A stretch of DNA of 38,763 nucleotides, taken from a virus. Below are positions 1,861 through 28,110 of the stretch, one piece after another. Position 1 is the stretch's first letter, and every line of letters begins with the position of its first letter. The notes beneath the pieces were generated by a model that worked only from the letters and a program-made list of their open reading frames with translations, was not told the origin of the DNA and ran no database searches. Where the stretch lies: positions 1 to 38,763 of the IMG/VR virus record IMGVR_UViG_3300021087_000032. The stretch is one strand, 5' to 3'. The translations under genes were made by a program, and so were the position numbers.

Positions 1861-1886
1861 ATCAATATTGATTGGAGAAATCTAAC

Positions 1887-4800
1887 ATGGCTTTTAGACA
1901 AATTAAATCGCCGGCTCTCGCAAATGCAGCAGTCATCGAATCCAAACTGGACGCAACATCCGTTTCTGGCCAAACGGGCGCATCGTCAGTAGGTTCGGCG
2001 GATACTTTTCTATTACACGTCAACGCTTCATCGTCATTAAAGAAAGTTACAGCTTCAGATCTAATCGGCTCATTTACAACAGCCGACTTAGCAGAAGATA
2101 GCAGTGCTTTATACTTTACACCGGCGTTAGCTCAGGCGGCAGTTGCGGCAGACATTGCAGCAGCAGTTTTAACAGAAACGAATCGTGCTACAGCGGCAGA
2201 AGGTGCAAATACAACAGCAATAGCGGCTGAAGAGACACGTGCTTTAGCAGCTGAAGGCGTTAATGCAAATGCAATAACGGCAGAAGAAACTCGTGCCTTA
2301 GCGGCAGAGGGTGCAATAGATACAGCTTATAAGGCAGCTGACGCATCTATGCAAACACAAATTAATAATATTATTAGTAACACAGATCCAGCAGCACTAG
2401 ACTCGCTGAGTGAAATCGTTACAGCATTCCAAAGTGCAGACTCAGTCTTTACTTCAGGTATTGCTGCAAACGCGGCGGCTATTACAGCTGAAACTACTCG
2501 TGCCACTGGCGCAGAAGGCGTTAACGCAACTAACATTGCAAACGAAATTAGCAGAGCACAAGGTGTAGAGGCAACTAACGCAGCGGCGGTAGTTACTGAA
2601 GCAGGATTAAGAGTAGCGGCAGATAATGCCTTAGACGCTCGTGTTACTGCAAACGAAGGTGACATCACAACATTAACAAATGGTTTAGCGGCAGAAATTG
2701 CTACAACTAATGGTGAGATTTCAACTTTAACTACAAACTTAGCGGCAGAAATTGCTACTGCAAGAGGTGCCGAGGCAGCGAACGCATCAGATATCGCGGC
2801 TGAAGAAACTGCAAGACAGAATGCTGATACACTTATCAGAACTGACTTTGCGGCAGCAGATACGGCGCAGACAACAGCAAATACTACAGCGTGGGAGGCA
2901 TATGCCGATCAAGCAGAAGTAGACGCTAAAGCATACACTGACACACGTGAAACAGCAATTAATTCAGCTTGGGCGGCAGCAGATGCGGCACAAACTTCAA
3001 CTATTAATGCGGCGTGGGCAGCGGCTGACACAGCTCAAACAACAGCAAATACTACAGCCTGGGAAGCATACGCTGACCAAGTAGAAGTAGATGCAAAAGC
3101 ATACACAGACACACGCGAAGGTGTTTTACAAGGAAACATTGATACAGAAACAGCAAGAATTGATTCAATCATTTCAAATACTGATCCTGCATCATTAGAC
3201 TCATTAACAGAGATTGTTGCGGCTTTCCAAGCAGCAGACTCAAACTTTAGTGCGTTAATTTCTTCAAACACTACTGCAATTGCTACAGAGGCAACTGCAA
3301 GAGCAAATGCTGATACTACACTACAAGGTAATATCACATCTGAAGCAGGCACACGTGCAGCAGCAGATGTTACATTACAAAGCAACATCGATGCAGAAGA
3401 AACTGCAAGAATTTCAGGTGATGCGGCAACATTAGCTTCAGCGGCAACAGACGCAACTACTAAAGCAGATGCGGCAGAGGCGGCAGCAATTGCACACGCT
3501 GACACAGAAGACGCACTATTAATTGGTGATGCAACTGTAGACGGAACAGCAGGTAATACTGTAAAAGCTCGTATCGATAGTGGTGATGCAGCAGTAACAA
3601 CAGCATTTGGAAACGCCGATACGGCAATTACAAATGCCTTTACAGCGGCTGACACAGCTCTACAACTTCAAATCACTGCTAACGATGGTGACATTGCAAC
3701 TAACACAGGTGACATTGCAACTAACACGGCAGCAATTGCACAAGAAGTTACAGATAGAACTACAGCTGATAATACGTTACAAGCTAACATTACATCAGAA
3801 GCAACTACAGCCAGAGCGGCAGAACTTGCTAACTCTCAAGCAATTACGGCGGAAGCCACAACTGCTAGAGCGGCTGAAGGTGCAAACACATTAGCTATCT
3901 CAAATGAGGTAACACGTGCAACTGGTATTGAAGCAGGTTTACGCACAGACGTAGATGCTAACACAGTAACTGGTTCTACAAACGCAGCATCGATTACAAC
4001 TGAAGCAACAGCAAGAGCGGCAGCTGACTTAACGTTACAAGGTAACATTGATACAGAAACAGCACGTATTGACGCTATCCTGTTAAATGCCGATGGCGCA
4101 TTAGACACATTAAAAGAAATTGGCGATGCATTTGCAGCAGCTGATTCAACTTTACAAGGTCTAATTACAGCTAACGGAACACGTTTAACAACAGCTGAAG
4201 GCAACATTACTACATTAGACGGTGAAATGGACGCAGCTGAGCTACGTTTAGATAGCTTAGAAGCAGTAGTGGCAACTGGTGGTCAATCACTAGATACTAC
4301 AGCAACAACACTAGTTGGTGCGATTAACGAAGTGCATGGTGAAGTAAACACTAACACAACTAACATTGGTGTTATTGGTGACTTAGATACTACAGCATCT
4401 AACTTAGTTGGTGCAGTAAACGAAGTGCATGGTGAAGTAGATGCTAACAAAACAGCGGCAGACACAGACAGAGCAGCGATTCGTTCAGAATTTGCGGCAG
4501 CTGACGGTGTTGTAACAGCGGCTTACACAGCAGCAGACGTAGTAGTAACAGGTGCATTCCAGGCAGCAGATGCGGCCCAAACAACAGCTTTACAGGCATA
4601 TGCCGATACAGCTGAAGCAGATGCAATTACGGCAGCAGGCACTTATACTGATGCAGAAGTTCTAACTGAAAAGACTAGAGCAGAAGCGGCAGAATTAGTT
4701 CTTACAAATGCAGTAGCGGCAGAGGCAACTACAGCACGTGCGGCAGAACAAGCAAACGCGGCAGCAGCGGCGGCTAACTTGTTAGAAATTACTGCAACAC

Positions 4801-6392
4801 AGGCAAGTGGTGGACTAAACTTAGACGGAACATATACAGCACATAGTGGTTCAAACTACATTGACGCTGGTTCTAACTTAAAAGCAGTTGACTTACTATT
4901 AGACGCACAAGCTAAAGCAAATGCAGACGCAATTGCAGGCGAGATTACTGACAGAACTACAGCGGTAGCGGCGGAAGCCTCAACTGCTAGAGCGGCAGAA
5001 CTTGCAAACGCAAATGCTATTGCAGCTGAAACAACAAGAGCAACTGGTGTAGAAGCTACATTATCTGGTCTTATTACAACTAACGCAACTGACCTTGCAA
5101 CTGAGAGTGCTAGAGCACAAGCAGCTGAAGGTGTAAACGCAACAGCAATTGCAGGTATCATAAGCAACACGGATCCAGCAGCTTTAGATTCATTAACTGA
5201 AATCGTAGCGGCTTTCCAAGCAGATGATGGCACAATTACTGGCTTAGTAAATACTAACACTACTAATATCGCAACTAACACGGCAGGCTTAGCTCAAGAG
5301 CTAGTTGATCGTGCAGCGGCAGATACAGCGTTAGATACAGCTTATAAGGCAGCGGATACTACATTACAATCAAACATCGACCTTAAACTAGCACTTGCTG
5401 GTGGAACTATGTCGGGTAACATTGCAATGGGTAGCAACAAGGTAACTGGACTTGCTAACGGCACAGATTCAGGTGATGCAATCAACAAAGGTCAACTAGA
5501 TGCGGCAGTATCAGCACTAGACTTGTCAAACTTTGACACTAATGACTTAGACGAAGGCACAGGCCCAACAGCTAACTTATACTTTACAACTGCAAGAGCA
5601 AGAGCAGCTATATCTGTAACAGATACAGCAGGCAACGGCTTAGCAAGCTACGACAATACTACAGGTGTTATTAGCATTAATACTAACGAATCAGTTCTAG
5701 ACCTAACAGATGTATCTGATACAGATTACACAGGTAAAGAAGATTTTGTATTACGTGTAAATGCTAACGAAGATGGAATGGAGCTTGTAAGCCCATTAGA
5801 TATCTTTGCACACAACTGGCGTCAAACTATTCCAGGTGATGGAACAGCGACACAGTTTGCTTTAACTAACCCAGTAGACCAGTCGGATGCATTAGTATTC
5901 GTTGGTGGTGTTATCCAGGATCCAGTAACGCACTATAGCATTACTAACCAGGTAATTACAATGACATCTGCAATGCCAGTTGGCACAGCAGCGGTAGTTG
6001 TAGCACCAAGCGTAGGTTTAGTACCAGTATTATCAGCTGGTCAGGTAACAACTGACAAATTATCAGCAGATATTAAAGCGTATGTCCAAGGTTCAAACGT
6101 TTCAACCACAACAGGTGGCGATGTAATCGACACATTTGCTAAAGCAACATATCGTTCAGCGAAGTATATTATACAAGCAGACGATGGCAATGGCAACTAT
6201 GAAACACGTGAAGCACTAGTAACACATGATGGAACAACTGCATACATCACAGAATATGCGATGGTATACACAGGTTCTAACTTAGTAGGTGATGCAAGTG
6301 TTAACATGAATGGTAACAATGTTGAGTTAACTTATACAACTAACTCAGGAACGGCAACAGTGAAGGTAATTTCAACATACATTGATGTGTAA
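1887..6392 (+). CDS. Giant coiled-coil tail fibre protein, about 1501 aa
   Basis: The best start is ATG 1887, with GGAG about 10 bases upstream (1874-1877); an in-frame TTG at 1872 lies on the RBS itself and is unlikely. The N-terminus MAFRQIKSP resembles those of two later genes (MAFRGIQS, MAFKIGNQ), suggesting a shared attachment end. Most of the protein is a long Ala/Thr/Glu/Asp-rich repeat array (TRAxAE, AAADTAQTT, YADQAEVDAKAYTDTRE), as in trimeric coiled-coil fibre shafts. Four divergent copies of the module TDPAALDSLTEIVAAFQ break up the shaft. Near the C-terminus come the fibre motif NLYFTTARARAAIS and a beta domain (PGDGTATQFALTNP, VFVGGVIQDPVTHYSI). There is no S74 chaperone domain. 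It is probably a long fibre shaft; its receptor is unknown. Confidence 0.85.
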   Translation: MAFRQIKSPALANAAVIESKLDATSVSGQTGASSVGSADTFLLHVNASSSLKKVTASDLIGSFTTADLAEDSSALYFTPALAQAAVAADIAAAVLTETNRATAAEGANTTAIAAEETRALAAEGVNANAITAEETRALAAEGAIDTAYKAADASMQTQINNIISNTDPAALDSLSEIVTAFQSADSVFTSGIAANAAAITAETTRATGAEGVNATNIANEISRAQGVEATNAAAVVTEAGLRVAADNALDARVTANEGDITTLTNGLAAEIATTNGEISTLTTNLAAEIATARGAEAANASDIAAEETARQNADTLIRTDFAAADTAQTTANTTAWEAYADQAEVDAKAYTDTRETAINSAWAAADAAQTSTINAAWAAADTAQTTANTTAWEAYADQVEVDAKAYTDTREGVLQGNIDTETARIDSIISNTDPASLDSLTEIVAAFQAADSNFSALISSNTTAIATEATARANADTTLQGNITSEAGTRAAADVTLQSNIDAEETARISGDAATLASAATDATTKADAAEAAAIAHADTEDALLIGDATVDGTAGNTVKARIDSGDAAVTTAFGNADTAITNAFTAADTALQLQITANDGDIATNTGDIATNTAAIAQEVTDRTTADNTLQANITSEATTARAAELANSQAITAEATTARAAEGANTLAISNEVTRATGIEAGLRTDVDANTVTGSTNAASITTEATARAAADLTLQGNIDTETARIDAILLNADGALDTLKEIGDAFAAADSTLQGLITANGTRLTTAEGNITTLDGEMDAAELRLDSLEAVVATGGQSLDTTATTLVGAINEVHGEVNTNTTNIGVIGDLDTTASNLVGAVNEVHGEVDANKTAADTDRAAIRSEFAAADGVVTAAYTAADVVVTGAFQAADAAQTTALQAYADTAEADAITAAGTYTDAEVLTEKTRAEAAELVLTNAVAAEATTARAAEQANAAAAAANLLEITATQASGGLNLDGTYTAHSGSNYIDAGSNLKAVDLLLDAQAKANADAIAGEITDRTTAVAAEASTARAAELANANAIAAETTRATGVEATLSGLITTNATDLATESARAQAAEGVNATAIAGIISNTDPAALDSLTEIVAAFQADDGTITGLVNTNTTNIATNTAGLAQELVDRAAADTALDTAYKAADTTLQSNIDLKLALAGGTMSGNIAMGSNKVTGLANGTDSGDAINKGQLDAAVSALDLSNFDTNDLDEGTGPTANLYFTTARARAAISVTDTAGNGLASYDNTTGVISINTNESVLDLTDVSDTDYTGKEDFVLRVNANEDGMELVSPLDIFAHNWRQTIPGDGTATQFALTNPVDQSDALVFVGGVIQDPVTHYSITNQVITMTSAMPVGTAAVVVAPSVGLVPVLSAGQVTTDKLSADIKAYVQGSNVSTTTGGDVIDTFAKATYRSAKYIIQADDGNGNYETREALVTHDGTTAYITEYAMVYTGSNLVGDASVNMNGNNVELTYTTNSGTATVKVISTYIDV
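3439..3475 (+). repeat. 37-base segment shared exactly with the next fibre gene
   Basis: Bases 3439-3475 are identical to 7331-7367 in the 586-aa fibre gene, in both cases encoding part of the coiled-coil shaft (ATDATTKADA). The two copies lie at different relative positions in their genes. A second identical pair is 3015-3043 and 7243-7271. Confidence 0.85.
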
Positions 6393-15914: not shown

Positions 15915-15950
15915 AACTATCTATGCATTTGCGTAGATAGTTTTTATTTT
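15915..15950 (+). terminator. Terminator between convergent units
   Basis: AACTATCTATGC and GCGTAGATAGTT form a 12-bp stem (one T-G pair) with loop ATTT, followed by TTTATTTT on the plus strand. The hairpin overlaps the last codons of the minus-strand Nudix gene, so it ends the glycosyltransferase unit. On the minus strand it has no T run. Confidence 0.85.
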
Positions 15951-16340
15951 CTTTAAGAAATCCCTAGACTTACACTGTATCTTTGCACCTGGGTGCAAAG
16001 GCTTAGGCCATTTGCCTATATCAACCCAAGCATATCCATCGCTTTCTCCGTTAAGAACAGGAATAAACTCTTCCTTTACTATTACAACAAAACTGTTGTA
16101 TATAAATCTACCATTACCACTTGTAAACTTGCTTATAGGAATAGTTTTTACTATTTCAGGCATCATGCCAATTTCTTCTTGTATTTCACGTCTTAGTGTT
16201 TCAATTGGGCGTTCGTCGTCTTCGCCCTTGCCACCAAAAAATCCCCACGTTTTAGAATGAGTAACTTTAGTGCTTCTAAGTTGTAATAAAATTCTTCCAG
16301 TTTGTGAGCTAAGAAAAATACAGCCACTTGCTTCTATCAT
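15921..16340 (-). CDS. Nudix hydrolase, 139 aa
   Basis: A complete Nudix box spans residues 37-59: Gly37, five residues, Glu43, seven residues, then REIQEEIGM. These residues bind the divalent metal that cleaves nucleoside diphosphates linked to another moiety. The rest fits the fold (GCIFLSSQTGRILLQLRS, TWGFFGGKGE). The start ATG overlaps the stop of the upstream gp15-like gene (TAATG), so it is the third gene of a neck-protein operon and presumably expressed late. T4 has a Nudix enzyme, NudE, but there it is not linked to neck genes. Substrate could be an oxidised nucleotide, ADP-ribose, a dinucleotide polyphosphate or capped RNA; the sequence does not decide. Confidence 0.9.
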   Translation of the reverse strand: MIEASGCIFLSSQTGRILLQLRSTKVTHSKTWGFFGGKGEDDERPIETLRREIQEEIGMMPEIVKTIPISKFTSGNGRFIYNSFVVIVKEEFIPVLNGESDGYAWVDIGKWPKPLHPGAKIQCKSRDFLKKIKTIYANA

Positions 16341-17710
16341 TATAAGTAGATTCTCCAGAACCCTGCATTATATACAGCTTCATAACTATTAACCCATACT
16401 CCGTCTTTCCATTCTAATTGATCAAGAGATGCTAAGTTAATACAATAATGTATAGATGACTGATTTGCTTCAGAATCAAATACTACAGACCATCCACTTC
16501 CATCAAATTCTACAATATCATACTTATTAGCAGTTGATAAACCATTCCAATTTGAACTAACTGGTATTGCTTCCATTAGTAAGTATCTAACACCAATACT
16601 ATTTGGAGCAGGAACAATTCCATCACCTGGATAATTTGTCATACCGTTTATTACACCAGTAATAGGTGGTAATGTGTTAGTAGGTAACGTAGTTTCATCT
16701 ATTGTTACAGACAATTTTGCAGGATCATTTGGATGTTCGTATAATTTACCTATAATATCATTTTCTGTATCATCTGGATCTGAACTTTTTCTTAGTCTAA
16801 GTTGACTAATGCCAGGTCGTAAAGCACCAAATCTTTTTAAGTCTTCTTCCCACGAAATAGCTACATCATTTGAATCTAAATTAGATCCATCAAGAGCAAG
16901 CAAAGTTACATTACCGTCTTCGTATTTAATTTTTCTATTTTCAAATGTAACAATAGTATATTCTACTGAAGACCTATTAAAAGGTTTTTCTTCTCTAAAG
17001 TTATCTAAGTCTGCATCATCTAAATTATACATTTGATTAATGATTGTATGTATAAGCCTTTGTTGTTTAACTTTAGCAGGCGGATTAATTAATACAGGCA
17101 TATCAAATTGAATAGAAGCAACATCAATAATATCATCAATGCTACTACCAACAGTTCTGGTGCTCCATGTAGTGTTTTTCATTTCTACATAACTTAATGA
17201 ACTCCAGTCAAACGGGTTAGCTGATGTTTTTATATCTAGTGTTGGATTGAATAATACTAATATTTGTTCCATTAGTTGTAATTTTTGTTCTGTATTAGAA
17301 GTCCATATATCACAATTCATTGATAAAACATATGTAACTGGTTTATGTCGTTCTATGGTGTATCTATTGCCAGGTTCGTTTGAATATTCACCGGTTATAT
17401 CATTATATTTTTTCTCTACAACTTGAACTTTATCTACATGTGATGGTAGTGTTCTTAATTCTGGTGCCATTGCTAAGTTAGTAACATAACAACTAATAAA
17501 TGGAACAGTGTTAACAATGTTCTCTGAGTTTTCTCTGGTTATGTGTGCAGCCATACGATTAATATCACCATAGCGAACAGGAACTAATTGCATTTCTGCT
17601 AAGCCTGTTTCATCTTTGCCCATTTGCACACTAAATCCACTAAACAATCTTATAAACTGCTGAATGTATCTTCTAATTTGCTTATCGTAAAAATATTGTT
17701 GCTCTGCCAT
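16340..17710 (-). CDS. Tail terminator / sheath stabiliser, gp15-like, 456 aa
   Basis: The first half follows T4 gp15: YFYDKQIRRYIQQFIRLFSG at residues 6-25, VPVRYGDINRMAAHI, VPFISCYVTNLAMAPELR, KPVTYVLSMNCDIWTSNTEQ, ILVLFNPTLDIKTS and IDVASIQFDMPVLINPP. T4 gp15 caps the finished tail tube and sheath and joins the tail to the head. T4 gp15 is 272 residues; this protein carries about 190 extra C-terminal residues of unrecognised type (from NQMYNLDDADLDNF on). It lies nine bases downstream of the gp14-like gene on the minus strand, keeping the T4 order 14-15, but inverted relative to the rest of the morphogenesis genes. Confidence 0.85.
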   Translation of the reverse strand: MAEQQYFYDKQIRRYIQQFIRLFSGFSVQMGKDETGLAEMQLVPVRYGDINRMAAHITRENSENIVNTVPFISCYVTNLAMAPELRTLPSHVDKVQVVEKKYNDITGEYSNEPGNRYTIERHKPVTYVLSMNCDIWTSNTEQKLQLMEQILVLFNPTLDIKTSANPFDWSSLSYVEMKNTTWSTRTVGSSIDDIIDVASIQFDMPVLINPPAKVKQQRLIHTIINQMYNLDDADLDNFREEKPFNRSSVEYTIVTFENRKIKYEDGNVTLLALDGSNLDSNDVAISWEEDLKRFGALRPGISQLRLRKSSDPDDTENDIIGKLYEHPNDPAKLSVTIDETTLPTNTLPPITGVINGMTNYPGDGIVPAPNSIGVRYLLMEAIPVSSNWNGLSTANKYDIVEFDGSGWSVVFDSEANQSSIHYCINLASLDQLEWKDGVWVNSYEAVYNAGFWRIYL

Positions 17711-17719
17711 TGTTTATTC

Positions 17720-18802
17720 CTAAAAGTCTGAATCTAGCCCTTTTTTCTTTGGGTCCATTACTTTACTTAATGCTTGACGTTCTGGTTCTTCTTTATTATC
17801 TACAACTGTTGTTGCATCATTATTAATAAAGTCTCCAGCATTGTAAGTTTTATCTGACCATGTTTTGTCTGTAATATTATCATATAGTCTATGCCATCTG
17901 CTACCCCTAAACACAAACAATCTATTAGGAGTAAAATCATTTCTTATGAAGTAAGTTCCATCATTTGGATCTTGTGGGAACTGGTCACCTTGTTCTAATA
18001 TTTCTCCGTGTTCGTATTCAGCAGGAGCATTGTCATCAACACCAAACAAGTGTTCAGCTAATGGCAAGTTATTTGGATTGGCCGCTTCTGCAGAAGCCAC
18101 AATAGCATTACTAATGTTAAGTTCAGTTTCGTATGAACTAAGGCTTTGTTTTAAACTATCTGGATCACTAGCAGTTCCAAGTATATCTGCATATTCTTGT
18201 GTATCTGTTAATGGTGCTACTTTAACACGCCAAATATGTGGATACCAAGTTTGTGAAAATCCTTCACTTCCTCTTGCGGCATCTTGCACAACATAAAATT
18301 TATTAACTGCATCTCTGTCATGGCTTAATAATAAATCATCTCTTAAATGAGGCAATTCAATTACATCACCTGGCATTAATCTTCTACCAAGTTTTTGAAC
18401 CATGTCGTTAATATGAAATGTAATAAACAATGTATCGTTTGTTAAAAACAAACCAAACTGTGTTAAATCAAAGTCATTATCACTTACATTATATACGCCT
18501 CGCAGTTCAAAAATATCTGGATCGTATTTACGATCTCTATTTTCCATAAACAGCAAGTCTTGTATATTAGTTTCGTCTACTAAACCTTCTGGATTAAGTT
18601 CTGCACCAGATAACATGTCTTTTTGTGTGCCACTACTGTAGTTAGGTTCACTTGGATCATCATTTGAAGGGTCGCTTTGTGGCCCAAGATACTTATGAAC
18701 ATGTATAGATGTGCCACCAATTAAAAATTGTTCGAGAATACTTCTATCCATGAACTTATAATCGTTGCTTTTGTATGGTTTATATAAACTGAGTCTTGGC
18801 AT
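17720..18802 (-). CDS. Neck protein, gp14-like, 360 aa
   Basis: Similarity to the T4 neck protein gp14 is seen in ILEQFLIGGTSIHVHKYLGP (residues 23-42), LFMENRDRKYDPDIFELRGV, DFDLTQFGLFLTNDTLFITF and RRLMPGDVIELPHLRDDLLL. It also ends in an acidic Asp-Ser-Asp-Phe tail, as T4 gp14 ends near DNDFMD. gp14 with gp13 forms the head-tail neck. T4 gp14 is 256 residues; the extra length here comes from an Asp/Pro/Ser-rich loop near residues 43-70 and a longer C-terminal half (AEYEHGEILEQGDQFPQDP). A late promoter lies 22 bases upstream on the minus strand. The assignment is by motif and adjacency to gp15. Confidence 0.78.
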   Translation of the reverse strand: MPRLSLYKPYKSNDYKFMDRSILEQFLIGGTSIHVHKYLGPQSDPSNDDPSEPNYSSGTQKDMLSGAELNPEGLVDETNIQDLLFMENRDRKYDPDIFELRGVYNVSDNDFDLTQFGLFLTNDTLFITFHINDMVQKLGRRLMPGDVIELPHLRDDLLLSHDRDAVNKFYVVQDAARGSEGFSQTWYPHIWRVKVAPLTDTQEYADILGTASDPDSLKQSLSSYETELNISNAIVASAEAANPNNLPLAEHLFGVDDNAPAEYEHGEILEQGDQFPQDPNDGTYFIRNDFTPNRLFVFRGSRWHRLYDNITDKTWSDKTYNAGDFINNDATTVVDNKEEPERQALSKVMDPKKKGLDSDF

Positions 18803-18906: not shown

Positions 18907-19878
18907 ATGTTTAGATTTTTTACAGTAAAAAAATGGGCTTTATGGTCCTGGCTAGGATCAGCAATAATCCTATCATCGCTTTGGATACAAGTCGAAATTG
19001 ATGTTAAGATTAACGAATGGTTTGGCCAATTTTATGATATGATTCAAAAGGCATTAGCAACACCCAATGCAATCACCATAGGTGAATATTGGGGCAGTTT
19101 AGCAAGTTTCTTATACTTAGCGGCTATCTATGTAGGTATCGCAGTAGTAGTAAGTTTCTTTACAGCACACTATCTATTTAGATGGCGCACAGCAATGGTC
19201 GAATGGTATCATAGTGTATATGACAAAGCTAGAACTATTGAAGGCGCCGCTCAGCGTGTGCAAGAAGATACTATTAAGTTTAGTCGTATTATGGAAGGTT
19301 TAGGAACAAGTTTTATTGAATCAATTATGGTTCTAGTTCAGTTCGTTCCTATTCTATTAGGACTATCAGTTGGTATTCCTATCTTCTTCTTTGGTGATTG
19401 GCAATATGGACTTGTTACAGGTGCTATTGTTTGGTCAGTAGGTGGAACATTATTCTTAATCGCACTAGGTTGGTTACTACGACTTGTGGGTGTTGAATAT
19501 GACTTACAGAAGAAAGAAGCAGCATATCGTAAGATACTTGTTATTGCAGAAGATGATGAGACAGTAAGACCAAAAACTATTAACGAACTTTTCCAAGATG
19601 TTCGTAGTATTCACTTTAAGTCTTATTTGCGTTATTTGTATTTTAATGTAGGACGTATTACATACTTACAAGCAAACGTATTAAGTGCTTATGTGTTCCT
19701 AGCACCAGCTATTGTAGCCGGCGTTGTAACACTAGGTGTAATGCAACAGATTATTAGAGCATTTGGTAGAGTTGAAGGCTCAATGCAATATCTCTTTAGA
19801 GCGTGGCCAACACTTATTGAGTTAATGAGTGTGTTCAAACGTTTAAGAGAATTTGAACGACAAATCAACGAAAAATAA
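18907..19878 (+). CDS. SbmA/BacA-family peptide transporter, 323 aa
   Basis: Motifs match E. coli SbmA closely: KINEWFGQFYDMIQKAL, SFFTAHYLFRWRTAM (83-97), IEGAAQRVQEDT (111-122), YGLVTGAIVWS (167-177), KEAAYRKILVIAEDD (203-217), YLYFNVGRITYLQ and AGVVTLGVMQQI. SbmA and BacA are inner-membrane, proton-driven importers of peptides such as microcins, proline-rich antimicrobial peptides and bleomycin. About five strongly hydrophobic segments are visible (about 13-28, 66-88, 138-161, 167-195, 255-280). E. coli SbmA has about 406 residues; this one lacks roughly the first 80, including an N-terminal membrane region, but keeps the core. ATG with AGAGGA upstream. It is a single-gene late unit with its own promoter and terminator. 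Substrate and role in infection are unknown. Confidence 0.9.
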   Translation: MFRFFTVKKWALWSWLGSAIILSSLWIQVEIDVKINEWFGQFYDMIQKALATPNAITIGEYWGSLASFLYLAAIYVGIAVVVSFFTAHYLFRWRTAMVEWYHSVYDKARTIEGAAQRVQEDTIKFSRIMEGLGTSFIESIMVLVQFVPILLGLSVGIPIFFFGDWQYGLVTGAIVWSVGGTLFLIALGWLLRLVGVEYDLQKKEAAYRKILVIAEDDETVRPKTINELFQDVRSIHFKSYLRYLYFNVGRITYLQANVLSAYVFLAPAIVAGVVTLGVMQQIIRAFGRVEGSMQYLFRAWPTLIELMSVFKRLREFERQINEK

Positions 19879-23631: not shown

Positions 23632-24249
23632 TTGAAAAAAGTAATTGGTATATGTGGACTTATTGGACACGGCAAAGACACAGCGGCCGGATTCTTAATT
23701 GAAGAAGGGTTTCAACGTATTAGTTTTGCAGGTGTGCTAAAAGATGCATGTGCTAACATATTTCAATGGGATAGAATACTACTAGAAGGCAATACTCCAG
23801 AAAGCAGAGTTTGGAGAGAAACTGTTGATGAATGGTGGGCCGATCGTTTAAGTATTCCTAACTTCACACCCAGACTAGCACTACAGCAAGTAGGCACAGA
23901 CGTTATGCGTAGACATTTTCATCCAGATATATGGGTAGCGGCATGCGAACGTCAAATTGCAATGACAGATAAAAACGTTGTTATTAGTGATTGTAGATTC
24001 TTTAATGAATTAAACGTAATAAAACGTTTTGGCGGAACTACCGCAGTTGTTTGGCGAGATAGTGAACCTGAATGGTGGGGATCTGCTTGTAAGGCAAATA
24101 TAGAACATGCACCACATATTATGGAAACACAATATCCAAGCGTTCACCCTAGTGAATGGAGTTGGGCAGGTTGGACATTTGATAGACAGATTAATAATGT
24201 AGGCACACTGGAAGATTTACGCCAACAAACACTAAAATACCTGTTATAA
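23632..24249 (+). CDS. Deoxynucleoside monophosphate kinase, gp1-like, 205 aa
   Basis: The start is TTG with AGGAG at 23621-23625; no ATG is better placed. The P-loop GLIGHGKDT (residues 9-17), SFAGVLKDACANIF, RLALQQVGTDVMRRHFHPD and KNVVISDCRFFNELNVIKRF match T4 gene 1 dNMP kinase, which phosphorylates dNMPs to supply dNTPs for phage replication. Length 205 against 241 in T4. An early sigma70 promoter between two late structural genes fits a nucleotide-metabolism role. About 80 bases without a gene follow, before the sheath gene's late promoter region. Confidence 0.88.
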   Translation: MKKVIGICGLIGHGKDTAAGFLIEEGFQRISFAGVLKDACANIFQWDRILLEGNTPESRVWRETVDEWWADRLSIPNFTPRLALQQVGTDVMRRHFHPDIWVAACERQIAMTDKNVVISDCRFFNELNVIKRFGGTTAVVWRDSEPEWWGSACKANIEHAPHIMETQYPSVHPSEWSWAGWTFDRQINNVGTLEDLRQQTLKYLL

Positions 24250-24343: not shown

Positions 24344-26698
24344 ATGGCAAATCTTGTTTCACCTGGAGTTCAGGTAACAATCACAGACGAATCAGTTTAC
24401 GGTCCAACTGGAACAGGCACAGTACCAATGTTATTCATTGCTACAGGCCAAGACAAGGTTGACCCAACTGGCACAACGGCTATAGCAGCACAGACTGTTA
24501 AAGCAAAGGCAGGTAAACCCGTATTAGTAACATCACAACGTGAATTAACACAAAACTTTGGTAATGTGGATTTTCATAAAGTAGGCGGCTCTGTCGTTCA
24601 AGGTGATGAAACTAATGAATACGGACTATTAGCCGCATATTCATTTTTAGGACAAAGCTCAGCAGCTTATATTGTTAGAGCAGATGTTGATTTAACAACA
24701 TTGCGTCCACAAAGCTCAGCACCAACTGGTCCTGCAGCAAATAACACATATTGGATTAACCCAAGCAAATCTAACTGGGGGCTATTTGTTTATGGCGCCA
24801 ATGGTTGGGAAGCAGTTACTCCAACAGTAGAAATTACAGACGGTTCAGCACCATCGGCAGCAGTTGTTACAGGTGGATACCTAGTAGCAGTAGCAGCCAA
24901 ATCTGGAACTACTGAAATCGAATACTATAAAGAAAGCGGCGGCGCATGGGTAACAGCAGCAATTAATACATTTGCACCACACTACAGTGAACCAGCTTCA
25001 CCAAGTGTTGGAGACGAATGGGTTAAAACTACTACACCAGGCAGTGGCTTTAAATTAGACATATCAAAATACACAACAGCAGCAGGTTCATTTGTAGCAC
25101 AACCAGTTCATTATGCAGACGATAATGCACCAGACGGAACTACAAGTGACATTTTCCAAAACGGAACATCTGCAACAGCTAGAACATTAGCTGAAGGTGA
25201 TTTATGGTTAGATCACGCAACAGACGAACTTGTAATTAAAGTTTATACTTCAGGCGCATGGGCTAACTTAGTTGTAACAGCAGCGTCAACAATGCCAACA
25301 GGAACACCTGTTAACGGCACTGTATGGCATGATGGTGATATCAACGAATTAGCAATTTTTGAAGTTGCACTTGATGGTGGAACACAAAAATGGCAACGTG
25401 CAACTAACGTAGCATACGGAACAGGTGCACCAGCAGTAGGCGGTGTAGGCGATTATTGGGTCGACACTGACGAAGCAGGCTACCCAGCAATTTACCGTTC
25501 AAACGGTGCTTCATGGGTTAAGAAAGACAATGCAGACCAAACAACATCAGCAGGTGTCGTATTTGGCGATATTACAGCTAACGATACAACAGCAGGTGGT
25601 TTTGAAGGAACATTATTAGCAGGTTCTCCAGATCCATTGTTACACCCAGTTGGAACAACTGGTATTAACATGTGTCGTTCAGGTGGAACAGTTAGAATGT
25701 ATAATTCAGCACTAACAACAACTTGGAAATGGCGTAACCATGCTCCAGCACAATTTGATGGATCAGGTTCATTTGGTAGACATGCTCAAAGAGCAGTTGT
25801 AGTAGCGGCAATGCAAGCAAGTGCAAGTGCTTCAGAAATACTTGAAGAAACAGTAGCATTTAGCTTAATAGCAGCTCCAGGTTATCCTGAAATGACTGAC
25901 GAAATGGTAACAGTAAACAGTAACCGTAACGAAACAGGTTTTGTTATTATTGATGCTCCATTACGTGCAAACCCAACTCAAGCAGTTGATTGGGTAAAAG
26001 GCGTAGGCGTAACAGCAAATGGCGAATCAGGACTAGCTACTAAGAATACTTACAGTGCGGTTTATTATCCACATGCATTAACAACTAACCCAGCAACTGG
26101 CGACAACGTTGTTGCTCCAGCATCACACATTGCATTATATACATTTGCATACAGTGATAACGTGAGCTTCCCATGGTTTGCACCAGCAGGCTTAACACGT
26201 GGTCAAGTTCAAAATGCAGCTAATGTTGGACATTTAACAGCAGAAGGTGAATTTAAAGCAGTATCACTTACACAAGGTTCTAGAGATGCAATGTATCTAT
26301 CTAAACTAAACCCAATCGCAAGATTCCCGGCAGAGGGTGTTGTAGTATTTGGACAAAAAACATTAAGTCCAAGTGCATCAGCATTAGATAGAGTTAACGT
26401 AGCAAGACTCACAGCTTATTTAAGAGAACGTTTTGCCGTAATAGCAAGACCTTTCTTGTTTGAAGCAAATGATGAAACTACAAGAACTAATGCAAAAGCA
26501 ACATTTGATGGATTTATGGGTGGTGTATTACAAACTAGAGGAGTTTATGACTTCGCAGTAGTATGTGATGAAACAAACAATACTCCAGCAAGAATTGATG
26601 CTAATGAATTTTGGATTGACGTGGCAATTGAGCCAACTAAATCAGCAGAGTTCATTTACATTCCAATTAGAATTGTAAATACTGGCGAATTAAGCTAA
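24344..26698 (+). CDS. Tail sheath protein gp18, 784 aa
   Basis: ATG with AAGGAG upstream. The N-terminus (MANLVSPGVQVTITDESVYG) and C-terminal half (AAPGYPEMTDEMV, FVIIDAPLRANPTQAVDWV, FPWFAPAGLTRGQV, LNPIARFPAEGVVVFGQKTL, SALDRVNVARLTAYLRERFA) are classic T4-type sheath. The sheath polymer surrounds the tube and contracts on adsorption. T4 gp18 is 659 residues. Here residues about 125-400 contain an insertion with five Trp-rich repeats of the type GDxWxD then about 15 residues then GxW (near 130-156, 223-250, 285-306, 325-351, 369-391). This insertion would sit in the surface-exposed protrusion region of the sheath. Late promoter upstream, strong terminator downstream. Confidence 0.95.
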   Translation: MANLVSPGVQVTITDESVYGPTGTGTVPMLFIATGQDKVDPTGTTAIAAQTVKAKAGKPVLVTSQRELTQNFGNVDFHKVGGSVVQGDETNEYGLLAAYSFLGQSSAAYIVRADVDLTTLRPQSSAPTGPAANNTYWINPSKSNWGLFVYGANGWEAVTPTVEITDGSAPSAAVVTGGYLVAVAAKSGTTEIEYYKESGGAWVTAAINTFAPHYSEPASPSVGDEWVKTTTPGSGFKLDISKYTTAAGSFVAQPVHYADDNAPDGTTSDIFQNGTSATARTLAEGDLWLDHATDELVIKVYTSGAWANLVVTAASTMPTGTPVNGTVWHDGDINELAIFEVALDGGTQKWQRATNVAYGTGAPAVGGVGDYWVDTDEAGYPAIYRSNGASWVKKDNADQTTSAGVVFGDITANDTTAGGFEGTLLAGSPDPLLHPVGTTGINMCRSGGTVRMYNSALTTTWKWRNHAPAQFDGSGSFGRHAQRAVVVAAMQASASASEILEETVAFSLIAAPGYPEMTDEMVTVNSNRNETGFVIIDAPLRANPTQAVDWVKGVGVTANGESGLATKNTYSAVYYPHALTTNPATGDNVVAPASHIALYTFAYSDNVSFPWFAPAGLTRGQVQNAANVGHLTAEGEFKAVSLTQGSRDAMYLSKLNPIARFPAEGVVVFGQKTLSPSASALDRVNVARLTAYLRERFAVIARPFLFEANDETTRTNAKATFDGFMGGVLQTRGVYDFAVVCDETNNTPARIDANEFWIDVAIEPTKSAEFIYIPIRIVNTGELS

Positions 26699-26853: not shown

Positions 26854-27456
26854 ATGGCTGTAACACAACAATTTGGCGTACCAGACGCAAACGGCGCCCA
26901 TGCTACATTAATGCCAAAATTACAATATCGCTTTAGAGTGACATTTAGTAATCTTGGGTTGGCAACAGGTGCTAACACTAATACTACTACACAAAACGTT
27001 ATTAGTGTAGGTCGTCCTTCATTAACACATGAAGAAGTAATTATTGATTCATACAACTCTAAAACTTATCTAGCAGGTAAGCATACATGGGAACCAATTA
27101 CATTGGTAATGCGTGATGATATGAATTCACATGTTATTAAAGCAATTGGTAATCAATTACAAGAGCAAATGGATCACACTTCTCAAGGAGCACTTGCACC
27201 TGATCAAGCACACGCAGGTAATGTGTATAAATTCAATATGAAAATTGAAACCCTAGATGGCACAGCTAAAGCTGATCCATATGATACATGGGAATTAGCT
27301 GGATGTTACTTATCAAACGTTCAGTATGGTGATTTAAACTATGGCACAAGTGATTTAGTGCAAGTAACAGCAACTATCCGTTATGACAATGCTAGTAACA
27401 AGATAACTGGTACTAACACTGAAGCTGATACCTTATCAAAAGCAGCACCTGAATAA
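26854..27456 (+). CDS. Tail tube protein gp19, 200 aa
   Basis: ATG with AAGGAG upstream. KLQYRFRVTFSNLG, VGRPSLTHEEVIIDSYNSKT, KHTWEPITLVMRDDMNSHV and WELAGCYLSNVQYGDLNYG match the T4-like gp19 tube subunit, which stacks as hexameric rings inside the sheath. Size is close to T4 gp19 (163) with extra loops. It follows gp18, as in T4, but each has its own late promoter. The leader carries a strong hairpin. Confidence 0.93.
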   Translation: MAVTQQFGVPDANGAHATLMPKLQYRFRVTFSNLGLATGANTNTTTQNVISVGRPSLTHEEVIIDSYNSKTYLAGKHTWEPITLVMRDDMNSHVIKAIGNQLQEQMDHTSQGALAPDQAHAGNVYKFNMKIETLDGTAKADPYDTWELAGCYLSNVQYGDLNYGTSDLVQVTATIRYDNASNKITGTNTEADTLSKAAPE

Positions 27457-27487: not shown

Positions 27488-27516
27488 AATTGTTTAGTTT
27501 AAGGGAGGTAACGTCA

Positions 27517-28110
27517 ATGAGATTTAACAAAGCGTATGACCTATACAATCAAGGTCAAACAGTTGAGATTACGAAAGGTGTGCCGAGGAGCAAATACGTA
27601 TTCACGGCCAGCCTTAGTCATATCGGAACAACTGGCACCGCACTTGAAACATTAAATCTAGATAAAATAGCAAGCGTTACAATGCCAGGATGGAGTTCGG
27701 CGTCAACTACATTGAACTCTTACAACCGTAAAAGAGTTGTTCAAACTAATTACGATTATTCACCAATTACACTCGTCGCGTATGATACAAGAGACCCAGC
27801 AGCCATTGAGTCTTTTCTCAAAAATTATTCAAACTATTATTACGCAGGACCAATGAATGTTAATAATCAATTAGATCATATAGCAAGCTCAAAAGGTTTT
27901 AAATTACAAGAAAGCCGTAATTTTATTAAAACATTAGACATAGTAAGAATGGGAAGTAAAACTGATATAAACAATATAACAATTTACAACCCATTCATTA
28001 CTGACATACAAGCAGATAATTTAGATTATTCAGATAGCCAACTAGTTCAATACAGATTGACTTTCGTATACGAAGGCTTTGACATTAGATCTACAAATTC
28101 AGGACAGTAA
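27517..28110 (+). CDS. Second tail-tube-fold protein (gp19 paralogue), 197 aa
   Basis: I choose ATG 27517 because GGGAGG (27503-27508) sits nine bases upstream; an in-frame TTG at 27490 lies inside the preceding hairpin. The fold reads like gp19: SKYVFTASLSHIG, IASVTMPGWSSASTTLNSYN, TNYDYSPITLVAYDTRDPAA and a late strand QLVQYRLTFVYEGFDI. T4 has other tube-fold proteins (gp54, the tube initiator, and gp3, the tube terminator), so this could be one of those rather than a bulk subunit. It is closely followed by gp4 (four bases). No promoter is visible between gp19 and this gene. Confidence 0.75.
   Translation: MRFNKAYDLYNQGQTVEITKGVPRSKYVFTASLSHIGTTGTALETLNLDKIASVTMPGWSSASTTLNSYNRKRVVQTNYDYSPITLVAYDTRDPAAIESFLKNYSNYYYAGPMNVNNQLDHIASSKGFKLQESRNFIKTLDIVRMGSKTDINNITIYNPFITDIQADNLDYSDSQLVQYRLTFVYEGFDIRSTNSGQ

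Follow-up and report, generated by a model that had tools for sequence, protein, structure and literature searches.

In the tail sheath protein of phage T4, gp18, domain II comprises residues 88-97 together with 189-345 and domain I residues 98-188, with domain I being the outermost (PMC8570332). Sheath proteins with further domains have been modelled by Evseev et al. 2022 (PMC9230969) for the phages RaK2 (888 aa, four domains), SCTP-2 (955 aa, four domains) and Atu_ph07 (1086 aa, five or more domains), so that a large multi-domain arm of the sheath is already known; the additional sheath domains are described there as mostly Ig-like, and adhesion, appendage formation or stability are proposed as their roles. 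The sheath of phage phAPEC6 has been detected in virions by mass spectrometry (PMC7247149), and a 2026 review of jumbo phages (PMC13282480) mentions hair-like tail appendages, the available portions of its text containing no mention of units such as those described below. Of the Trp units of the sheath and their kinship with units of tail-fibre proteins, which are the subject of the present analysis, no description was found in the accessible text of the open PMC literature.

The stretch of DNA analysed here (the window) consists of 38,763 bases of an IMG/VR virus record and encodes, at 24344..26698 and on the plus strand, as do all the features given below, a tail sheath protein of 784 aa of the T4 gp18 type, assigned to PHROG_10581. 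This assignment is based on Pfam Phage_sheath_1C (PF17482; E 1.9e-10, 41.1 bits vs a cut-off of 26.9), on the PHROG_10581 "tail sheath" profile (E 1.1e-194, in two stretches, the best of which is aa 295-781) and on fold matches to T4-type sheaths; PF04984, the subtilisin-like sheath domain, scored 25.9 bits, which is below its cut-off of 31.4. The AlphaFold2 model of the whole sheath, made with a 47-row alignment, has a pLDDT of 79 overall, about 90 in the insert discussed below and less than 50 in parts of the N-terminus and of the C-terminal core, and it matches the T4 structure 9mkb (Foldseek E 3.0e-14), T4 gp18 in 3j2m_U (Z 20.3 over 233 residues, 3.0 Å) and 9f4a_SA (Z 21.7 over 249 residues, 3.3 Å). 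The upstream neighbour of the sheath gene encodes a deoxynucleoside monophosphate kinase (23632..24249; phrog_139, E 2.4e-44), and directly after the sheath gene lies that of the tail tube protein (26854..27456; phrog_4542, E 6.9e-48). A dNMP kinase is likewise annotated directly upstream of the sheath in five of ten named phages (PA5oct, RaK2, CBB, XaC1 and Muenster) and in 121Q, and the sheath record of PA5oct carries the annotation "ESI-MS/MS". Among contractile tail sheaths of the T4 type, the window protein belongs to those of the RaK2/PA5oct group of jumbo phages.

In an hhalign comparison against a four-sheath outgroup profile (T4-like, cyanophage and pelagiphage), only two parts of the protein align reliably, namely aa 2-114 with T4-like residues 1-84 (91%) and aa 567-781 with residues 444-648 (100%). 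They mark the N-terminal part of the conserved sheath core (aa 1-114, 24344..24685) and, together with the Pfam Phage_sheath_1C match, its C-terminal part (aa 485-784, 25796..26695), within which aa 485-566 are assigned to the core by multiple alignment only. For aa 115-566 no alignment above 0.4% with the four-sheath outgroup profile was obtained, a missing match which is in itself not proof of absence. In the multiple alignment, window aa 118 corresponds to T4-like residue 88 and aa 470 to residue 345, and given the domain limits of T4 gp18 this places the units as replacing the outer domains I and II, and not as added to them. The original prediction had spoken of an inserted region, which is only half right, since the region takes the position that domains II and I have in T4 gp18. 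The replacement is maybe less complete than this, since a remnant of T4 domain II may be present within part of aa 397-478 (25532..25777), a beta-rich segment with the conserved W463, which according to the structure model and the alignments leads the chain back to the core.

The units themselves, of which there are five, are homologous to one another, are each about 40 aa long and were delimited by unit HMMs and profile comparison as r1 (aa 122-160, 24707..24823), r2 (aa 211-256, 24974..25111), r3 (aa 274-311, 25163..25276), r4 (aa 313-356, 25280..25411) and r5 (aa 358-396, 25415..25531). Five Trp-rich repeats had been predicted between residues about 125 and 400 (24716-25530), and the presence of five homologous units in that stretch, of which aa 125-396 correspond to 24716-25531, is thereby confirmed; the motif given for them, GDxWxD followed by GxW, needs to be relaxed, since its closing Trp is found in four of the five copies but GDxWxD occurs literally in only two of the five. 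The opening motifs from r1 to r5 are NTYWIN (aa 134), GDEWVK (223), GDLWLD (285), GTVWHD (325) and GDYWVD (369), and the closing ones NGW (W155), SF (F250, the Trp being replaced by Phe), GAW (W306), QKW (W350) and ASW (W391), the overall pattern of the unit being P..G[DT].W.[DN]....[IL].....[WF]. Among the 185 units collected from alignment A1 (47 rows, namely the window plus 46 of the 58 IMG/VR loci proteins longer than 600 aa), the shared positions are P in 85%, G in 87%, W in 96%, D/N after the W in 70%, I/L/V in 90% and W or F in 99%, and these positions common to the copies (P, G, W, I/L/V, W/F) look, as far as their sequences tell, like core and turn residues. The other ORFs of the window, scanned with the sheath-derived unit model, gave no match with E < 0.048.

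The relatedness of the copies was assessed by profile comparison of their orthologous columns (hhalign), in which strong links are seen for r1-r4 (97.3%), r1-r5 (96.9%), r4-r5 (95.3%), r3-r5 (93.6%) and r2-r5 (90.6%), r5 thus being tied to all four other copies at at least 90%. The remaining pairs are weaker (r2-r3 56.4%, r1-r2 38.2%, r1-r3 34.6%, r2-r4 7.5%, r3-r4 4.9%), and the last two are at or near the level of the controls, i.e. 65 comparisons of the copies with other segments of the sheath, whose maximum was 4.2% and whose top value involves aa 160-200, overlapping a possible degenerate unit. When the window sequence alone was used and each copy was omitted in turn, the top match fell in the omitted copy in all five cases, and the score was attained by 3, 45, 0, 1 and 1 of 500 shuffles for r1 to r5, respectively; r2, with 45 of 500, is consequently not significant on its own and is weak from the window alone. 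It has to be noted that the five-copy HMM is circular for the window and the all-unit HMM for the 47 rows of A1, whereas the named phages are independent of the latter. The possible degenerate sixth unit (aa 170-214, 24851..24985), which contains W202, compares with r5 at 73.8% (40.5% if its limits are drawn more narrowly) and with the other four copies at 3.1% at most, and was called as a unit by the HMM in only one relative (L030). The segment aa 428-472, considered as a further unit, was rejected, its profile link to the units being 2.9% at most.

Outside the window, a sheath match is present in 2576 phage records, and the best-covered of these include, among the 40 listed, those of the jumbo phages PA5oct, RaK2, K64-1, CBB, Munch, Atu_ph07, Phosso, SCTP-2, XaC1 and Vibrio 2.275.O. 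The IMG/VR relatives are 79 loci, taken from the 80 top matches out of 562, and hence a sample chosen by closeness to the window. Altogether 94 sheath sequences were collected, 79 of them distinct, and the 69 longer than 640 aa, some of which end at a contig end, were used for unit counts; the ten shorter ones that were dropped are mostly contig-end fragments, L065 being shortened by the start rule. With a unit HMM built from the window and the IMG/VR rows and a threshold of E <=1e-3 (for one sequence), all 65 distinct group sheaths longer than 640 aa have two to six units, some of the matches being partial (five units in 35 sheaths, four in 23, three in 5, six in 1 and two in 1). The ten named jumbo phages, which were not used for the model, all have two to five units, again with some partial matches, and two are present in the 887-aa sheath of 121Q. 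T4 gp18 had been said in the original prediction to have no such repeats, in agreement with which the HMM found units in none of the four outgroup sheaths (T4-like, cyanophage and pelagiphage).

In the named phages, whose hosts range from Klebsiella to Agrobacterium and Salicola, W137, W155, W328, W350, W372, W391 and W463 are conserved in 10/10 and W226 in 9/10, W202 and W306 are Trp in 5/10, and W288 is Trp in 0/10. The units are thus a trait of the group and not a peculiarity of the window phage; judged from the aligned sequences, r1, r2, r4 and r5 are common to the named jumbo phages, and r3 is clear only in the window's close group and degenerate in the named phages. The degeneracy of r3 there, and a count of no more than four units in most of the larger relatives, led to the idea of a constant five units group-wide being discarded. 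Additional sequence is found in most larger relatives, both between r1 and r2 and in or near r3, and its placement differs between two alignments: in one multiple alignment the extra stretch lies within r3 and measures 95-139 residues in nine of the ten rows L054 to L088 and 3 residues in Atu_ph07, but this position inside r3 does not hold in A1, where the extra residues occur at aa 207, 262 and 298 (three rows). Pfam searches with the extra stretches of two relatives (L061 and L081) gave sub-threshold matches only.

The insert of the window contains 13 Trps, of which 137, 202, 328, 350, 372 and 463 are Trp in 47/47 rows of A1, the others being Trp in 45 rows (391), 44 (226), 41 (306), 33 (155), 29 (461), 28 (288) and 20 (145). 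The Trps that are invariant both in A1 and in the ten named phages (137, 328, 350, 372 and 463) would fit residues of a structural core, though conserved Trps would be compatible with a conserved ligand too. Among 28 relatives with a C-core identity above 60%, the mean difference from the window is 29.9% in the insert, 18.1% in the C-core and 11.6% in the N-core, the insert being less conserved than the C-core in 28/28, and the dN/dS ratio over 19 pairs is 0.29-0.37 for the insert, taken region-wide, vs 0.085-0.25 for the core. The insert therefore evolves faster than the core, yet it is under purifying selection as measured by region-wide dN/dS. Insert and core distances are correlated (Spearman 0.81, 406 pairs). 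This pattern of divergence and dN/dS would fit an exposed but structurally constrained arm and, at the level of the region as opposed to single sites, does not resemble what diversifying selection or exchange would produce.

The insert modelled alone by AlphaFold2 (aa 114-478; pLDDT 91, pTM 0.77) is predicted to be nearly all beta. A standard gp18 domain without repeats, which the original prediction had named as the contrary outcome, was not found. Against the PDB, the model of the insert gave no match at E <=0.001 (the best of any kind being at E 0.14), an Ig-like sandwich being still compatible with it, and a sequence search for solved structures related to the unit gave none with E < 0.55. 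In a second structure comparison with 987 chains, nine reached Z >=2, the best (Z 3.0 over 46 residues) being a Pan3 tail chain. The top matches among predicted viral proteins are the tail sheath A0A8S5SZY6 (TMq 0.64, E 8.7e-20) and the unnamed protein A0A2Z5HGQ6 (TMq 0.53, E 4.7e-20), and weaker local ones include Orpheovirus proteins, one of them collagen-like, and tail fibres. The strands of the insert are grouped approximately by threes or fours, and fucose-lectin propellers are among the first non-sheath PDB matches of the whole model, both of which would suit a compact repeat fold such as a beta-propeller instead of a chain of separate units. With the insert alone, however, the first lectin propeller appears at E 0.17 with a TM of about 0.1 and an rmsd above 20 Å, and lectin propellers are missing from the six entries listed with Z >=2. 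A compact fold is hence judged highly improbable, and the reading as a beta-propeller or fucose-lectin was set aside after the insert-only search and the second structure comparison.

The original prediction had also proposed to look for the repeat in other phage structural proteins, and the unit was found in tail-fibre and minor tail proteins. In PHROGs, the stretch matches the tail-fibre family phrog_18983 (E 2.6e-4), and the consensus unit matches tail-fibre and minor head protein families (E 0.002-0.007). A search with the consensus unit returned 52 phage records at E 0.006 to 1, the weak matches including cyanophage, Geobacillus and Vibrio tail fibres as well as RaK2/121Q-type sheaths. 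In the portion examined of a Microbacterium phage Cece minor tail protein, the unit HMM recognizes nine units, eight of them at E <=0.004; a tail fibre of P-SSM2 and the "carbohydrate binding domain protein" of Exiguobacterium phage EalM132 have one each, and in S-CREM2 the HMM found none with E up to 1, though there is a tblastn match at 3e-4. When the unit profile was run on 12 phage records, all ten jumbo phages matched and the T4-like and cyanophage records were without a match. Units outside the sheath are present in jumbo phages as well, with one in the "tail protein" gp317 of PA5oct (E 0.0025) and two (E 7e-4 and 0.0017) in the hypothetical protein gp176 of Atu_ph07, which itself matches a tail-fibre family. 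Of nine IMG/VR records searched, two encode such units in three more ORFs (709, 720 and 1047 aa), and a search with a unit from one of them retrieved 93 phage records at E <=0.01, mostly cyanophages. Pfam and NCBIfam searches with the stretch of the window gave no family of any kind up to E 10, and hence no known repeat or carbohydrate-binding module.

The sharing of the unit with these tail-fibre and minor tail proteins (Cece, P-SSM2, the Exiguobacterium phage and the 93 mostly cyanophage records) could point to an adhesion surface, in which the units would weakly bind host-envelope or other glycans and hundreds of copies would make the tail sticky, a role proposed for additional sheath domains generally by Evseev et al. 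2022 (PMC9230969). Such a surface is considered rather unlikely, since no polar patch is conserved across the copies except the D/N after the Trp, purifying selection acts region-wide with insert distances tracking those of the core, and the lectin matches are no better than noise; moreover, the units in fibres may be mere shaft or linker modules. That adhesion modules of tail fibres have been built into the sheath in this jumbo-phage group, some 600-750 copies of which would make the tail wall bind to the host or a matrix and would be rearranged on contraction, is seen as distinctly unlikely. Attachment to glycans or surfaces, a possible function according to the original prediction, is so far not supported, and glycan binding by the units is a candidate function which nothing in the analysis specially favours.

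The units sit where the outermost domains of T4 gp18 are, and the surface display of the modules which the original prediction envisaged is, by homology with this position, likely. Its estimate of about 700 modules, for a copy number like that of T4, is close to what the 25 rings of six subunits of the jumbo phage phAPEC6 (PMC7247149) would give, namely 150 subunits and, at five units each, 750 modules. An arm in this position could in principle serve as a docking platform carrying tail whiskers or other decoration proteins, the hairs of CBB and phAPEC6 being examples. This sheath type is present in CBB, which has tail hairs of 119 nm (PMC5259590), and in 121Q, with which phAPEC6 is compared in PMC7247149, and the filaments of phAPEC6, whose sheath is outside the present alignment, are located on the sheath (PMC7247149). 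These filaments, however, are found at only three annular positions along the 25 rings (PMC7247149), and whiskers are undescribed in other published RaK2-like phages according to the accessible text of the 2017 CBB paper (PMC5259590), RaK2 itself having the units. With three filament positions, and with units but no described whiskers in RaK2, the units would be at most a permissive site and cannot alone specify the hairs, which makes docking as their function an improbable explanation.

The explanation regarded as probable is that the sheath has an arm of beta units of the tail-fibre type whose role is primarily structural. On this reading, the conserved N- and C-terminal core would form the contractile lattice, and small all-beta units, numbering five or perhaps six, would make up an arm that substitutes for the outer domains of T4. 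Each unit would open with a strand bearing a Trp, close with one bearing Trp or Phe, and be of a kind that is also used by tail fibres, with the Trps presumably building the small cores of the units. The arm would, by homology, point outward from the sheath, homology also suggesting how the units may pack, and it would mainly act as a structural spacer and contact surface in the assembled sheath, weak surface adhesion being a possible by-product. The units give a sequence-level identity to the large, unexplained outer part of one class of jumbo-phage sheaths and allow a role of its exterior to be tested in phages that are in culture, e.g. PA5oct, RaK2 or Munch; if they were autonomous, they would moreover offer a high-copy display site on the virion.

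Compared with T4 gp18, the window protein is similar in its conserved core, its fold and the adjoining tail tube gene, and differs in that the two T4-like sheaths examined have no units, T4 having domains I and II at the site of the units. The multi-domain (type 3) sheaths of Evseev et al. 2022 (PMC9230969) are alike in that RaK2, SCTP-2 and Atu_ph07 belong to the group of the window, the difference being that the Trp units and the link to tail fibres go unmentioned in the accessible text of that paper. The RaK2/PA5oct-type sheaths (PHROG_10581) share 34.5-43.2% identity along the chain, among the 40 records listed, and have their units at the same place, but they are 878-1091 aa long vs 784 aa in the window, of which the clear r3 is a feature. 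Finally, the GDxW units of tail-fibre and tail proteins (Cece, P-SSM2, PA5oct gp317) have in common with those of the sheath a pattern of about 36 aa, by which they are recovered with sheath-derived models; they occur as one to nine units in unrelated fibre or tail chains, whereas those of the window lie inside a contractile sheath subunit.

In the alignments, the larger sheaths of the group (880-1180 aa, L061 among them) carry added stretches of tens to more than 100 aa, which are placed in the interval between the first and second of the five Trp units (r1 and r2) and in the surroundings of the third (r3), so that these appear to be sites on the arm that tolerate added sequence. No Pfam family was assigned to those pieces of the added stretches that were searched. 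The AlphaFold2 model of the insert gave local matches in BFVD to two Orpheovirus proteins (E 4e-8 and 5e-7, TM about 0.1), one of them collagen-like, hinting that units similar to those of the sheath exist outside phages too.

Elsewhere in the window, a 1506-aa ORF upstream of the tail-fibre genes (1872-6392, +) is without a match in Pfam, and its only PHROG match is short and weak. Three genes at 15921-18802 (-) run opposite in strand to the surrounding plus-strand block. One encodes a NUDIX protein (Pfam), another a tail sheath stabiliser of the T4 gp15 type (PF16724, E 2.5e-22), and the product of the remaining one, 360 aa long, has no match in Pfam. The neck and tail genes lie downstream of a gene for an SbmA/BacA-like inner-membrane peptide transporter (18907-19878, +; PF05992, E 4.1e-140), to our knowledge a rare kind of cargo among phages. 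Past the sheath, two adjoining tail-tube-like genes (26854-27456 and 27490-28110, both +) each match phrog_4542, and the records of the jumbo phages RaK2 and CBB likewise hold two tail tube proteins in this position.
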